Assembly: GCA_003491845.1 (NCBI GenBank)
Contig: DNBN01000253.1
Coordinates: 1-22,144 of the forward strand
Reading direction: 5' to 3'
Source: Porticoccaceae bacterium
GTDB taxonomy: Bacteria > Pseudomonadota > Gammaproteobacteria > Pseudomonadales > Porticoccaceae
DNA length: 22,144 nucleotides
The position numbers and the translations under genes were made by a program. Of this stretch, positions 2,378 to 13,720 are shown in pieces; the stretch's first letter is position 1; each line of letters begins with the position of its first letter. The notes beneath the pieces were generated by a model that was not told where the DNA came from, searched no databases, and saw only the letters and a program-made list of their open reading frames with translations.

Positions 2378-3362
2378 TAGCAGGCTCACTATCCATAAAA
2401 ATGTCGTCTTCTTGATTTGGCCCTAGCGTTGAGTCTCCAGCGCTTTGATCAATAATATTTGCCTTGTCAATTTGTTTAGCCAATGCCTTATCAACAGCAT
2501 CTTTGAGCCCCTCCCCCTCTGGCAAAGATTGTTCATATTGCCCTTCGATTTCATCTGACACTGGGACCTGACTAGTCAATTCACCGGATGCAACTGACGG
2601 ACTAATCGGTATGTCAGTCATCATAGAATCGAATAGTTCGGCCAACCTGTTTTCCATCAGGTCTTCGATTGATGCATTGTCAAAGGTTAATTTGATACTC
2701 CCTCTTTGTAGTAAAGGGTCCTCACGTAGCACTAATTGTGGTTGGTTTTCAACCAGATGTTGCTCAATCAAACGCATATCCATTGGGTTGAGACTTAGCA
2801 CAGTCGGCATGTTGCCCTGAACCTCGATATCTTTCAGCGCCTCAGTGACAAGCCTTTCAATAACCACCGATGAACTACTCAACTCTCCACGCACTAACTG
2901 CTGGGCCATGCTAAGCGATAATTGCTTTAGCGGTGCAAAAAATGCGGCAGGGTCTCTGTGTGCTGCCTCAACACTGTTGGTAAGCTGCACAAATAGGTTT
3001 TTGGCGTCAGTAAATTTTTGTTCAGCTTCTGCATAACCTTTGTTATATCCTTCCTGAAATGATTTCGTCTCGGCATCTCTCACCACCTCTATGCCGAACA
3101 TTTCTGGTTCCGGTTCACTTTCAATTGGCGCGTCCTTCACCTGGTCTTTTTGATCACTTTTTAATGCGCCACTTGCGTCCAAAAATCCTTCTGTTGGCTC
3201 TTCTACAGCAACTATTTCTGTTGGCGCCCAGAGCTTAAAACCATCCTGCTGGATTGCGTCATTAGGCGTGCCCCAAGAAACACTTGAGAAAGACTGTTTT
3301 TGTTTATCTGCAAGTAAAAAGTCATTTAATTGCCAGTTGGATTTGTTCGCATTATTAGACAA
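2370..3362 (-). CDS. fliH: Flagellar assembly protein FliH (TTG start)
   Basis: FliH is the stator-like regulator of FliI, binding the ATPase and anchoring it to the C-ring. The product has a Trp-containing N-terminal segment (FKLWAPTE), a central coiled-coil part (SFQEGYNKGYAEAEQKF) and a conserved C-terminal domain ending near residue 255, followed by an extra acidic tail. The open frame reaches back to 3491 inside fliG, but that upstream part overlaps FliG coding and is not FliH-like. The TTG at 3362 is preceded by AAGGGAG with 6-nt spacing, giving 330 residues, and overlaps the fliG stop by 8 nt. At about 330 residues it is longer than E. coli FliH (235), mainly because of the acidic linker and C-terminal tail. 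Confidence 0.9.
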   Translation of the reverse strand: MSNNANKSNWQLNDFLLADKQKQSFSSVSWGTPNDAIQQDGFKLWAPTEIVAVEEPTEGFLDASGALKSDQKDQVKDAPIESEPEPEMFGIEVVRDAETKSFQEGYNKGYAEAEQKFTDAKNLFVQLTNSVEAAHRDPAAFFAPLKQLSLSMAQQLVRGELSSSSVVIERLVTEALKDIEVQGNMPTVLSLNPMDMRLIEQHLVENQPQLVLREDPLLQRGSIKLTFDNASIEDLMENRLAELFDSMMTDIPISPSVASGELTSQVPVSDEIEGQYEQSLPEGEGLKDAVDKALAKQIDKANIIDQSAGDSTLGPNQEDDIFMDSEPAND

Positions 3363-4413
3363 AGTCGTCTCCCTTACCAACCAACACGATTTCGCCATCG
3401 TCTGACAATTTCTTAGCAATTCGAATGATATTTCGCTGCGCAGCTTCAACCTCAGCAATTCGAATAGGGCCTTTATCTTCCATGTCATCAAGGAATAATA
3501 AACGCGCTCGCTCTGACATATTATTCAAAAAATTATCTTTAGTAACATCATCGGCACCTCTAATTGCTGCCATAAGAACATCTGAACCGACAGTTGAAAG
3601 AAGTTTTTGTATACCTTTGCTATCAACCGTTGCCAGATTATCGAAGGTAAACATTTTGTCTTGTATCTTCGTGGCAAGAGCTTCATTGCTCGCAGTCATG
3701 CTATCCATTACTTCGTTGCTTAAATCAGAGTTCACAAAGTTCATTATGGTAGCGGCAGTTTCAATACCTCCTAGAGAAGAGGATTTCGCCGACGTATTGG
3801 TAAACTGTCGAGTCATAATACCCTCAAGTTCCGCCATTGCTGCGGGCTGAACTGAATCCAAGGTTGCTACACGCCTAACGATTTCAGCACATTTGTCTTC
3901 AGGCAGTAAGCCAAGAACCTGTGCCGCCATATCGCCTTCAAGTACCGATAAAATGATTGCCGAAATTTGTGGGTGTTCTGATTCAATGATCTCTGCAATA
4001 GAACGAGCATCCATCCACTGTAGAATTTCTAAACCTTTACTGGTGCTGGCCGGCATAATTTTGCCCAAAACCGTTGCTGCCTTGTCATCACCTAAAGCTC
4101 TTTTAAGAACATTCTTGACATAATCTGCTGTTCCCAAGCCCAGGTTAGTTTGTTTCTTAATTGTAATAATAAATTCATCAAGAACCTTATTTACCAAATC
4201 TTGTGACAAATCTGATACATCGACCATCGCAGCGCCAACAGCGCTTACCTCTTTGGGGTTCAGAAATTGTACAATCTCAGCGGCTTGCTGCTCACCCAAC
4301 AAAAGCATTAATACTGCAGCTCTTTGACTACCAGACATCATTAAATAGTCTTTTTGAATTAGCTCATCCATAGGATCAAGCTGCACGGCTTCTTGTTGTT
4401 TTTTCTTAGCCAT
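3355..4413 (-). CDS. fliG: Flagellar motor switch protein FliG
   Basis: FliG is the C-ring protein that sits on the FliF MS-ring and contacts the stator A subunit to produce torque. All three regions are present: an N-terminal FliF-binding domain (AAVLMLLLGEQQAAEI), the middle-domain EHPQ motif (ESEHPQISAIILSVL), and the C-terminal torque helix with the conserved charged residues in SERARLLFLDDMEDKGPIR. The 352-residue length is normal for the Vibrio/Pseudomonas type. AAGGAG lies 8 nt before the ATG. It follows fliF by 20 nt and overlaps fliH, consistent with one transcript. The charged torque residues fit interaction with the PomA-like protein encoded at 12744-13511. Confidence 0.98.
   Translation of the reverse strand: MAKKKQQEAVQLDPMDELIQKDYLMMSGSQRAAVLMLLLGEQQAAEIVQFLNPKEVSAVGAAMVDVSDLSQDLVNKVLDEFIITIKKQTNLGLGTADYVKNVLKRALGDDKAATVLGKIMPASTSKGLEILQWMDARSIAEIIESEHPQISAIILSVLEGDMAAQVLGLLPEDKCAEIVRRVATLDSVQPAAMAELEGIMTRQFTNTSAKSSSLGGIETAATIMNFVNSDLSNEVMDSMTASNEALATKIQDKMFTFDNLATVDSKGIQKLLSTVGSDVLMAAIRGADDVTKDNFLNNMSERARLLFLDDMEDKGPIRIAEVEAAQRNIIRIAKKLSDDGEIVLVGKGDDFV
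3369..3375 (-). promoter_or_regulatory. Ribosome binding site that decides the TTG start of fliH
   Basis: AAGGGAG is embedded in the last codons of fliG and lies 6 nt before TTG 3362. No ATG or GTG is comparably placed, and this is the strongest Shine-Dalgarno match in the neighbourhood. Confidence 0.75.
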
Positions 4414-10425: not shown

Positions 10426-11544
10426 CTAATTTGCGTCAATAACCACTTCTATTCTACGATTTCGGGCACGCCTTGAAGAAGTGTTATTAGGTGCTAATGG
10501 CTTTATGTCTGCCATGCCGCTGGCCATAATATTGCCCGCTGAAGCGGGCGCAATGTCTAACAAAAATTCTACTACAGCAGAAGCTCTGGCGGCGGACAGA
10601 TCCCAATTAGATCTAAACTGTTCGTTATAAGCCATGGGAACATTGTCTGTGTGGCCCTCTACGGTAATAAGACCAGTAACGCCTTCTATAGACGCGCCTA
10701 ATTTGTTAAGTACTGGCTCAAAAGCAGTTTTAATGGTCGCCCGACCACTGGCAAAAGATCCCTGCTCAGCGAGGCGAACAATAATTTTATCTCCTTCCCT
10801 AAGAACTTCAGCCTGACCTTTGTTAATCTCAGCTGCCATGTCTCTTCGTATTTTTTGATATTTATCAGCAAAAGCAGCTTCTCTTGCTAAAATTTTAGCT
10901 TCTTTTGCATCTTGGCTGTCGGACACCTCACGTAAAGAAAGCTCAAGTTCAAGCTCGCTTTGTAAGGCAGCTACCTTGGCGTAGATGTTCAAATCATCCT
11001 CACGTACTCGAGTACCAAATTTACTATTTTCACCCTTACCCACTGTACCAGTAGAATCATCTGTAACAATTTCAATCACAGCTTGAAAAGTACCAGCCCT
11101 AATTCTAACCTTCCCTTCTGCTATTTCCTTAGCTAAGGAGCGCTTGATTAATTCAACGTCATCATTTGACTTGAATGGCTCTTGTTTACTAAAGGCTGTC
11201 AACACAACATCTTTGGGAACTTTAATATCTGTTGTATCTTCTTGAAGTTCTTGGATTAATGTTTGTTCAACTTGTGCCGGCGAAAATGTTTTAGCAATAA
11301 CACTATCACCCTCTGGCCTGTCCACAATAGGAATTTCATTTTGCACACCAAAGTCACCATCTTCAGTACCTGAGACGGTTTGAGCACCAGCAGTATCCAT
11401 ATCTGCAAAAGCAATTAGCAACACAAAAAAAGCCATTAACAAAATCGCCATGTCTGCAAATGTTGCCATCCACATGGCGACACCCGCCGGACATGGCTTA
11501 CAATTATTAACAAGTGTCTCATCATCTGCGATATTGTCAGTCAC
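10426..11544 (-). CDS. PomB/MotB-like stator subunit, second paralogue
   Basis: A stator B subunit links the A-subunit ion channel to peptidoglycan. The 372-residue product has a CxxC motif at residues 15 and 18, one membrane segment (MWMATFADMAILLMAFFVLL, 24-43) with the ion-binding Asp31, a long charged periplasmic region, and a C-terminal OmpA/MotB peptidoglycan-binding domain (GHTDNVP, SNWDLSAARA, RRARNRRIEVVI). PomB and MotB are usually about 310-320 residues, so the linker is about 55 longer. It starts with GTG at 11544, overlapping the stop of the first paralogue (GTGA), with AGAGG 7 nt upstream, so translation is coupled. Ion specificity cannot be settled from the sequence. Confidence 0.9.
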   Translation of the reverse strand: MTDNIADDETLVNNCKPCPAGVAMWMATFADMAILLMAFFVLLIAFADMDTAGAQTVSGTEDGDFGVQNEIPIVDRPEGDSVIAKTFSPAQVEQTLIQELQEDTTDIKVPKDVVLTAFSKQEPFKSNDDVELIKRSLAKEIAEGKVRIRAGTFQAVIEIVTDDSTGTVGKGENSKFGTRVREDDLNIYAKVAALQSELELELSLREVSDSQDAKEAKILAREAAFADKYQKIRRDMAAEINKGQAEVLREGDKIIVRLAEQGSFASGRATIKTAFEPVLNKLGASIEGVTGLITVEGHTDNVPMAYNEQFRSNWDLSAARASAVVEFLLDIAPASAGNIMASGMADIKPLAPNNTSSRRARNRRIEVVIDAN

Positions 11545-12674
11545 TGTCGTGCCTCTTCTGCAGTGGCGGCAGTTACAATAATTTCAATACGGCGATTCAT
11601 TGCTCGACCTAACCGGGTTGCATTGCTGCCAATAGGTTTAGAATCTGCAAAACCAGCTATTTTTAACCGTCCCTGCCGTATAAATGAGCCATTAATCATT
11701 GCCGCTGCCACAGATGAGGCCCGTGCGGTTGATAGATCCCAGTTAGACTTGAAACTCTGGCTAAACATCACCGGAATATTGTCCGTATGGCCTTCAACTC
11801 TAATTTTCCCTTTCGCAGTTGATAGGGTTTCTGCCAATCTGCCAACTAAATCTTTAGCCTGGGCTGTCAAGTCAGCTCTGCCTGAAATAAAAGAGTCTTG
11901 ACTTGCCAATCGCACAGAGAGCCGGTCTTCTTGCAACACCGCTTTTAAGGTTCCCTTGCTAATTTCATCCTCAAAAGCCTCGATAACTGCATCGTACTGG
12001 TCTTTAAGTTGCTGTTTTTCACGTTCTTTGGCAGCCTGTAGGGCACGAAGATCTTGTGATCTCAACTCAACCTTTGTACCCATCTGTGAGGTAATACTTA
12101 GTACTTTTGCAGCAATATCAATGGTACTTTGCCTTACTCTGGCGCCTTTACGAAGACCATCATCTGGCTCACCTGACCCACCGCTGGTAAATAGCGACTG
12201 AAGCTCCACGACAATTTGCTCATCTTCTATACGTATTAAGGCATCCCCTTTTTCCATAGCTTCAGAAAGCGTGTCAGTCAAACGACGAAAATCAGATTCG
12301 ATACTAAAATCGCCTATATCACTCAAAGTGTACCGCTTTCGGTATTTCCTAAGAGTATCATCTGAATCTGTGAATGGGGCAGACAAAGGCGTTCCCTTTG
12401 CAATAACGGCAGCAAAACGTTCATCCAACATACTCGTGGCTGTAGGAATATTATCGATAACAACTTTGCGATCAACACCAAAAGCGGCACGGATAGATGC
12501 CGCAAAATTTGACTGCAACATAATGTTGATTTCCGTAAAAGAATAGAGCAACGCAAAGAACGCCATCAATAAGATCGCCATGTCTGCAAACGTTGCCATC
12601 CACATAGGCGCAACTGGCTTACATTTTGGGCACTTTATTGGCTTAACTTCTTCCTGTTGGGCAAATTCCGGAAT
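11541..12674 (-). CDS. pomB: PomB/MotB-like stator subunit, first paralogue, probable ATT start
   Basis: The product has the PomB layout: CxxC at residues 15 and 18 (KCPKCKP), membrane segment MWMATFADMAILLMAFF from residue 24 with Asp31, a long charged coiled-coil-like periplasmic part, and an OmpA-type domain (GHTDNIP, SNWDLSTARA, GRAMNRRIEIIV). The first ATG in the frame (12605) would place the membrane helix at the very N-terminus, removes the CxxC leader and has no ribosome site. Upstream to the stop there is no ATG, GTG or TTG. An ATT at 12674 has GAGGAG 7 nt before it and yields 377 residues whose CxxC, Met24 and Asp31 coincide in number with the paralogue. The ATT start is inference; a sequence error is the alternative. 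It follows pomA by 69 nt. Confidence 0.85.
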   Translation of the reverse strand: MPEFAQQEEVKPIKCPKCKPVAPMWMATFADMAILLMAFFALLYSFTEINIMLQSNFAASIRAAFGVDRKVVIDNIPTATSMLDERFAAVIAKGTPLSAPFTDSDDTLRKYRKRYTLSDIGDFSIESDFRRLTDTLSEAMEKGDALIRIEDEQIVVELQSLFTSGGSGEPDDGLRKGARVRQSTIDIAAKVLSITSQMGTKVELRSQDLRALQAAKEREKQQLKDQYDAVIEAFEDEISKGTLKAVLQEDRLSVRLASQDSFISGRADLTAQAKDLVGRLAETLSTAKGKIRVEGHTDNIPVMFSQSFKSNWDLSTARASSVAAAMINGSFIRQGRLKIAGFADSKPIGSNATRLGRAMNRRIEIIVTAATAEEARQ

Positions 12675-12681
12675 AGCTCTT

Positions 12682-12687
12682 CTCCTC
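12682..12687 (-). promoter_or_regulatory. Ribosome binding site pointing to an ATT start codon
   Basis: GAGGAG on the minus strand lies 7 nt before ATT 12674 and is a near-perfect anti-16S match. No other initiation codon stands at a workable distance from it in this frame. Confidence 0.6.
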
Positions 12688-12743
12688 GTCGATGAAAAGC
12701 AACAAATAAATAAGCAATAAGTCTGTTATCACTATAATAAAAC

Positions 12744-13511
12744 CTAAGCTGCAGCATCAGCGGCAGCATCTCGTTTAGCTTTTCTTTTCGGTGCTATATA
12801 GGGCGCTAGAATGTCCTCCATAAGGCGAGGGTTAGTGCCATTTTTAATAAACATAATGCCAATAATAATCAAATCATTGTTGCTTTCTTCAAGCTTTGCA
12901 TAGCCCTCTAGTTTCATCCCCATAGGTATAAAAAATACGTTAGCCATCACCGACCCGTACAATGTGGTTAAAAGGGCTAGCGCCATGGCTGGACCAATCC
13001 CAGACGGATCTGCAAGGTTAGCTAATAGATTCACCAAACCAATAAGCGTGCCAATCATGCCCATACCAGGGGCCAATTCAGCCGCGGCACTTAACATATC
13101 AGCGCCCGTTTCGTGTCGAGCGGCAGTCTTTTCTTTCTCACGCTCCAAAGACTCCTTAATCAACTCAGCTTTAGTTCCATCGACCAGAGCCGTGACTCCT
13201 TTACTCAGAAATCGATTCTTGATTTCAACTCTTTCTAAGGCAATCATGCCCTCTTTTCGGGCAATCGTAGCTAACTCAAATAACTGATCTATTAACTCTT
13301 CAGGTTCTTCTACTTTATTGGAAAAGACCTTCCCTATTACCATTGGCAACCCTAAAGCATCTGAGAGTTTGGAGCGCATTACCGTAACCATGACCGCGGC
13401 ACCAAAGACAAGTGCGGCGGAGCTAGAATCCCATAGTGCTCCGGGGTCCTCAACCGCTATACTGATGAAGCCAAAAGCACCCAGCAACCCTACAATCGTT
13501 GCAATATCCAT
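12744..13511 (-). CDS. pomA: PomA-like flagellar motor stator subunit A
   Basis: This 255-residue four-helix membrane protein is the ion-channel subunit that pushes on FliG. It resembles Vibrio PomA throughout: N-terminus MDIATIVGLLGAFGF, cytoplasmic-loop segment ARKEGMIALE with charged residues that contact FliG, third membrane segment ELAPGMGMIGTLIGLV (Pro148, Thr155), and fourth segment ALLTTLYGS (Thr183); Thr155 and Thr183 match PomA Thr158 and Thr186 with a constant offset. The PomA resemblance suggests a sodium-type motor, but MotX/MotY are not visible and specificity is inference. It ends in an Ala/Lys-rich tail. It heads an operon with two B subunits and has a sigma-28 promoter at 13624-13650. 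Confidence 0.94.
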   Translation of the reverse strand: MDIATIVGLLGAFGFISIAVEDPGALWDSSSAALVFGAAVMVTVMRSKLSDALGLPMVIGKVFSNKVEEPEELIDQLFELATIARKEGMIALERVEIKNRFLSKGVTALVDGTKAELIKESLEREKEKTAARHETGADMLSAAAELAPGMGMIGTLIGLVNLLANLADPSGIGPAMALALLTTLYGSVMANVFFIPMGMKLEGYAKLEESNNDLIIIGIMFIKNGTNPRLMEDILAPYIAPKRKAKRDAAADAAA

Positions 13512-13595
13512 TTAATTATCCGCTAACTTCAAGTATTTCAGTAAAGGTATCCAAAAGGTTACCCTGTATTCAGGCGCGATCTCAGCACCCGCCAG

Positions 13596-13616
13596 ATAAG
13601 AATTTGTGATTCTTAT
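13596..13616 (-). promoter_or_regulatory. Hairpin at the predicted 5' end of the pomA transcript
   Basis: ATAAGAAT (13596-13603) and ATTCTTAT (13609-13616) are perfect 8-bp inverted arms around a five-base loop. The predicted sigma-28 start of transcription is near 13616, so the pomA mRNA would begin almost exactly with this stem-loop, about 100 nt before the ATG. Such terminal hairpins can protect mRNA from 5'-dependent decay; that role is inference. Confidence 0.5.
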
Positions 13617-13623
13617 AAGGTAG

Positions 13624-13650
13624 ACATCGGCACTTTAAGCTATTAATTTA
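13624..13650 (-). promoter_or_regulatory. Sigma-28 (FliA) promoter of the pomA-pomB-pomB operon
   Basis: On the minus strand TAAA (13650-13647), exactly 15 nt, then GCCGATGT (13631-13624). It matches all four bases of the -35 core and seven of eight bases of GCCGATAA. It lies 113 nt before the pomA ATG. Sigma-28 control is usual for stator genes in many flagellated bacteria. Confidence 0.8.
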
Positions 13651-13720
13651 GTAGCTTCTGCAGTTAACCTCATTGCTGTTAAGAATAGGATTTTTTACTG
13701 CATTTTAATTGCTCAAATAT

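Follow-up and report, generated by a model that had tools for sequence, protein, structure and literature searches.

We identified an ATT codon (12672..12674, minus strand) as the best-supported start of pomB1, a gene for a PomB-like stator B subunit, and from the sequence comparisons below we estimate the probability that pomB1 is translated from this codon at about 0.85. The window, i.e. the whole stretch of 22,144 nucleotides that was analysed, is part of a single draft genome (341 contigs, 4.51% contamination). On its minus strand, pomA, pomB1 and pomB2 follow each other in a row. The first gene (12744..13511, minus strand) encodes a PomA-like stator A subunit of 255 aa, with a Pfam MotA_ExbB match of 93.4 bits and an ATG start at 13511 that has weak Shine-Dalgarno (SD) pairing (-3.3 kcal/mol). 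Read from the ATT, pomB1 (11541..12674, minus strand) encodes 377 aa with an N-terminal CPKC motif. Its MotB_plug and OmpA domains score 43.5 and 56.7 bits, each over the Pfam cut-off, and this combination of a MotB_plug N-terminal helix with an OmpA-like C-terminal domain is that of a stator B subunit; the placement of pomB1, adjoining and downstream of the MotA/PomA gene, fits this assignment as well. The second PomB-like gene, pomB2 (10426..11544, minus strand), has a GTG start and the same two domains. The two PomB proteins of the window share about 32% identity, and one pomA stands ahead of both. Many genomes of the genus carry such a tandem pomB pair.

Start signals of pomB1 in the window

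Reading the pomB1 frame codon by codon, we found a TAA at 12728, then 40 sense codons without a single ATG, GTG or TTG, and then the ATG at 12605 (12603..12605, minus strand), which confirms what had been claimed in an earlier, sequence-only reading of this DNA. The frame thus lacks a usual start between its stop and the conserved coding sequence. The ATG at 12605 is its first usual start; it encodes Met24 of the full protein, directly before the WMATFADM helix, and is where the catalogue cluster P0002 begins, probably falsely. The upstream stretch contains three ATH codons: ATT 12707, ATT 12674 and ATA 12638. The GAGGAG motif noticed earlier was indeed found 7 nt ahead of ATT 12674 (12682..12687, minus strand), with an anti-SD pairing energy of -8.9 kcal/mol, compared with -4.3 kcal/mol for ATA 12638, -0.6 kcal/mol for ATG 12605 and +0.4 kcal/mol for ATT 12707. 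Among the seven pomB1 codons tested here, ATT 12674 had the strongest pairing and was the only one that combined a strong SD with suitable spacing; ATT 12707 and ACG 12689 were rejected as starts, having no SD pairing. On this basis, the strong SD would bring the initiator tRNA to AUU, and the product would be a PomB of 377 residues whose N-terminal tail carries CPKC.

To see how often such a site arises by chance, we used dinucleotide shuffles. An in-frame ATH 5-9 nt after AGGAG occurred in 115 of 5000 shuffles of the window region and in 109 of 5000 shuffles of the corresponding region of the relative G031; after GGAG, the counts were 251/5000 and 225/5000. A single region would therefore be expected to contain such a site by chance in about 2% (AGGAG) to 5% (GGAG) of cases, so one case by itself is only mildly unusual, and it is the recurrence in two lineages at equal spacing, described below, that bears weight. 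If the lineages are taken as independent, the double coincidence would be expected about once in 2000 (AGGAG) or once in 440 (GGAG).

Several other features were considered. The sequence-only reading had pointed out that Cys15, Cys18, Met24 and Asp31 have the same residue numbers as in the paralogue starting at GTG 11544. The numbering is correct, but we set it aside as evidence for the start, since relatives differ widely in how far the start lies from the conserved Trp. A hairpin around the SD was not supported: a 32-nt stretch gave z = -2.23 in the window but -0.98 in the relative's locus L032, and 86-nt stretches gave z = -0.13 and +0.75. The mean unpaired probability was 0.43 for the SD and 0.32 for the start, so that unusual openness is not predicted. 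A promoter scan of positions 12500-13700 gave no sigma-70-like site and one terminator-like site on the plus strand, and shuffled sequences gave about as many. No relative was found among the viral contigs. Elsewhere in the window, the mechanically assigned fliH reading frame starts at TTG 3491 and overlaps fliG by 137 nt (3355-3491, minus strand); from the sequence, TTG 3362, which is preceded by GGGAG and overlaps the fliG stop by 8 nt, looks the likelier start.

The start region in relatives and in catalogue entries

The pomB1 type was present in 5 of 112 family genomes (match to cluster P0013 at E 1e-85 or better). The nearest relative, G066/L032 (JAQWYJ010000091.1), which we treated as one genome and which is probably a single record, has a PomB1 with 97% protein identity and a pomB1 with 92.9% nucleotide identity. 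It keeps the ATT, the SD (-8.9 kcal/mol) and the 7-nt spacing, and the SD sits in a 20-nt stretch identical to that of the window, while the remaining intergenic stretch is altered at several places. In the more distant G031 (PomB1 52% identical), AAGGAG (-8.4 kcal/mol) is followed after 7 nt by ATA, with no ATG, GTG or TTG between the stop of the frame and CPKC; the subsequent residues, NQDDCPKC, align with the annotated starts MNQNDCPKC (P0007) and MSQDDCPKC (P0008), which were compared as protein only. The comparison with relatives that had been proposed as a check thus gave ATT or ATA in these genomes, yet it also gave ATG in two others. G020 has AAGGAG, 7 nt and ATG, and G015 (L116) has AAGGAG, 7 nt and ATC GCC ATG. 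A usual start is therefore tolerated in the clade. In G015, the ATG at which cluster P0005 starts lies 13 nt away from the SD, so its pomB1 may start at the ATC two codons earlier. In all clade members compared, the SD pairing was strong (-8.2 to -8.9 kcal/mol).

Among 62 distinct PomB-like N-termini (matches to the pattern C-x(2-5)-C ... TF[AS]D[ML] among the loci, identical copies counted once), three had no usual start: those of the window, of G066/L032 and of G031. The direct DNA evidence for a missing usual start thus comes from two lineages. In the protein catalogue, ten of the 15 closest clusters (P0002-P0016) begin at MWMATFADM or MATFADM, and five begin upstream. Genome DNA of 99-100% identity was available for four of the 15 (P0002/window, P0014/G031, P0005/G015 and P0006/G020), and in 4/4 the catalogue label, truncated or full, matched what the DNA showed about a usual start. 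Two of the ten clusters starting at the internal Met are covered by DNA of genomes with 99% identity, and the eight others (P0003, P0004, P0010-P0013, P0015 and P0016) probably also lack a usual start. Entries can also be truncated because the contig itself is cut, from which P0013 is exempt because, according to one source, its gene is complete from base 2225 of its contig. The G031 gene (L114), with its apparent ATA start, a start codon rare in bacteria, is represented by P0014 (99% identical), which is listed as truncated.

Truncated and full entries were intermixed within the larger sub-clade of a 22-row tree, which suggests that the start state was altered there more than once, provided that the catalogue labels hold. 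Two entries without the N-terminal domain, P0122 (230 aa) and P0123 (206 aa), were excluded from the tree and from the count of 15; among P0017-P0121, P0047, P0088 and P0097 were inspected, and P0047 and P0088 served as the outgroup. Probably as a consequence of the rare start, gene catalogues list a shortened PomB1: gene finders that assume ATG, GTG or TTG are blind to such starts, and this omission appears to strip the motor protein of its N-terminal tail in 10/15 of the closest clusters.

We then weighed other origins of the PomB1 N-terminus. Initiation at ATG 12605, with the upstream frame untranslated, would agree with this codon being the first usual start and with the P0002 entry, and we regard it as very improbable. 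It has nearly no SD pairing, and in G015, G020 and G031 Pro stands at the position of this Met while CPKC is still present upstream. Between the window and G015, the nine codons Cys15-Pro23 comprise four identical, five synonymous and no non-synonymous codons; G020 and G031 compare less cleanly with the window, each showing three non-synonymous differences there. The MotB_plug match reaches into the upstream residues and gains 11 bits from them (43.5 bits from the ATT versus 32.5 bits from ATG 12605), and the Vibrio PomB chains 8bri_F and 8zyv_A align beginning at residue 14 of the ATT-started PomB1. From these alignments we conclude that the stretch ahead of ATG 12605 is coding and that the N-terminal tail of PomB1 is under protein-level constraint. 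Nor is pomB1 a decaying copy, since the window and G066 differ in it by 66 synonymous and 10 non-synonymous codons (dN/dS 0.048). As for a start at ATA 12638, two codons ahead of CPKC, the codon is kept in G066 and has partial SD pairing (-4.3 kcal/mol in the window, -6.5 kcal/mol in G066). We nevertheless consider it improbable: its SD is weaker and its spacing longer, and the stronger SD before the ATT lies within the identical 20-nt stretch. Moreover, between the window and G066, the codons from the ATT to Lys14 show two synonymous and two non-synonymous differences in 14, whereas the frame upstream of the ATT shows two synonymous and five non-synonymous differences in 17, both being small numbers.

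An error in sequencing or assembly, or initiation in a different frame followed by a frameshift, would be conceivable in a single draft genome of this fragmentation and contamination, and we give it hardly any credence. The base error that the sequence-only reading had wished to see excluded is unlikely because the ATT of G066/L032 is identical and stands in a diverged context. A frameshift from another frame was rejected for want of a conserved start: in G066, the other two frames contain no ATG, GTG or TTG in the stretch examined before +41 from the ATT, and the other-frame candidates of the window are not conserved in G066 and meet stop codons at +29 and +37. Taken together, the SD pairing, the ATT in G066/L032 and the ATA in G031 support the earlier proposal of an ATT start well.

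Overlap with pomB2 and a possible role of the start codon

In the window, the GTG of pomB2 at 11544 overlaps the stop of pomB1 by 4 nt (GTGA). We surveyed 25 pomB1/pomB2 junctions, a subset of the loci. In all five genomes with the pomB1 type, pomB2 has its nearest start ahead of where pomB1 ends, so that start and stop overlap by 4 nt in the window and G066 and by 8 nt in G015, G020 and G031. Among the remaining 20 junctions, all from the genus, the first candidate start comes after a gap of 6-65 nt in 17; in three (L016-L018), the genes may overlap by at least 11 nt. Gene overlap often couples translation. Because of the overlap, both B subunits may be limited together, and the junction suggests that both could be affected by the pomB1 start, a point absent from the earlier reading.

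AUU initiation at pomB1 would be several-fold weaker than AUG initiation and sensitive to IF3, and by analogy with the AUU and AUA starts of Staphylococcus aureus, pomB1 would be produced at a reduced rate. The stator usually consists of five A and two B subunits, according to extracts of PMC12505986. A weak pomB1 start would then lower the amount of both B subunits compared with PomA and help to set the A:B ratio of the stator operon. The link to IF3 drawn in the earlier reading, by which the B subunit may be kept low or tied to the initiation-factor level, is plausible, since IF3 counters such starts (PMC5472188, in extract) and infC has ATT in the loci examined in this genus. If the weak start does limit both PomB proteins, the stoichiometry of the stator would be controlled at the level of translation, by the initiation codon.

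Whether the codon serves as a selected throttle is a separate matter, and we put such a role at somewhat below even odds. Equal weight is given to a real ATT start devoid of regulatory role, in which the strong SD frees the codon to drift among ATG, ATA, ATT and ATC. In favour of such drift are the four different codons seen 7 nt past the SD within the clade (ATT in the window and G066, ATA in G031, ATG in G020 and ATC in G015) and the uniformly strong pairing before them. Drift sits less well with the purifying selection toward AUG that generally acts on bacterial start codons (Belinky et al., PMC5622118, in extract) and with the truncated annotation in 10/15 clusters, which suggests that the state persists and is not quickly repaired; the overlap with pomB2, too, gives the ATT start a consequence. 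The proposal in its widest form, which we consider rather unlikely, is that a whole SAR92 sub-clade kept or repeatedly gained AUU, AUA or AUC starts of pomB1 behind a strong SD, and that a gate sensitive to IF3 and shared through the pomB2 overlap would set both the A:B ratio and the amount of flagellar stators, so that motor power would be linked to the condition of the translation apparatus.

Comparison with known systems

Non-canonical starts in bacteria have been experimentally characterised in very few cases (PMC5472188), and Belinky et al. counted one AUG-to-AUU switch among 61,358 ancestral AUG starts (PMC5622118), both as given in the extracts of these papers. The earlier statement that ATT starts are very rare agrees with this count; AUU and AUA starts are, however, described beyond infC and pcnB, the two genes that it named, in extracts of PMC13009471. 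AUU and AUA starts behind a strong SD are known from infC and from S. aureus cvfC1 and ccpN, and the class is therefore not new. What is new, to our knowledge and within the open-licence papers searched, is pomB1 as such a gene and the exchange of AUU and AUA between relatives; in this literature we found nothing on start codons of SAR92 flagellar genes and nothing joining motB, translational coupling and the stator.

The closest parallel is infC, which in E. coli and in the genus studied here has, like pomB1, an ATT preceded by a GGAG core (at 8 nt in infC of this genus, at 7 nt in pomB1) and belongs to the IF3-sensitive start class (PMC5472188, in extract). The last 50 codons before the conserved motif were inspected for 33 of the 43 genomes with an infC match, and ATT was found 8 nt after GGAG in 33/33 loci, including those of G000, G066 and G031; locus L084 also has an ATG 14 codons past the ATT. 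In L111 (G000 C146), an N run with similar repeats on both sides lies in the thrS frame ahead of infC and is probably an artefact of scaffolding in this draft genome. infC is autoregulated, whereas pomB1 encodes a motor subunit for which feedback is not known. In E. coli pcnB, AUU keeps the protein low (Binns and Masters 2002, as cited in extracts of PMC9764084 and PMC13009471); unlike pomB1, that gene also has a poor ribosome-binding site (same extracts). We dropped pcnB as a second AUU control, since all 20 loci examined, from 20 of the 45 genomes matching above the family cut-off, have an in-frame ATG. AUU use can therefore not be assumed from E. coli, and the ATT of infC together with the ATG of pcnB leads us to expect that AUU initiation works in this genus in a gene-specific manner.

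In S. aureus, cvfC1 starts with AUU, and ccpN and citZ start with AUA, the codons found in pomB1 of the window and of G031, respectively; as for pomB1, a strong SD and a conserved start are reported for cvfC1 and ccpN. The natural starts of cvfC1, ccpN and citZ give about 10% of the expression from AUG in poor medium; in rich medium, the AUA of ccpN rises to up to 30%, and the AUU of cvfC1 is unaffected. These cases differ from ours in that they concern other genes of a Firmicute with an extended SD and measured expression, while pomB1 is known from sequence (all from extracts of PMC13009471). In Streptomyces, the rare start of sigR helps to set the ratio between two partner proteins encoded in one operon, as would be the case here; there, the start is GTC, the partners are a sigma factor and its anti-sigma factor, and repression by IF3 has been demonstrated (PMC5472188, in extract).

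At the protein level, PomB1 resembles the Vibrio PomB of the chains named above, which has a Cys-containing N-terminal tail, a WM-TFAD transmembrane helix and an OmpA-like C-terminus. Vibrio is described as having one pomB beside pomA, whereas here two tandem pomB genes stand behind one pomA.
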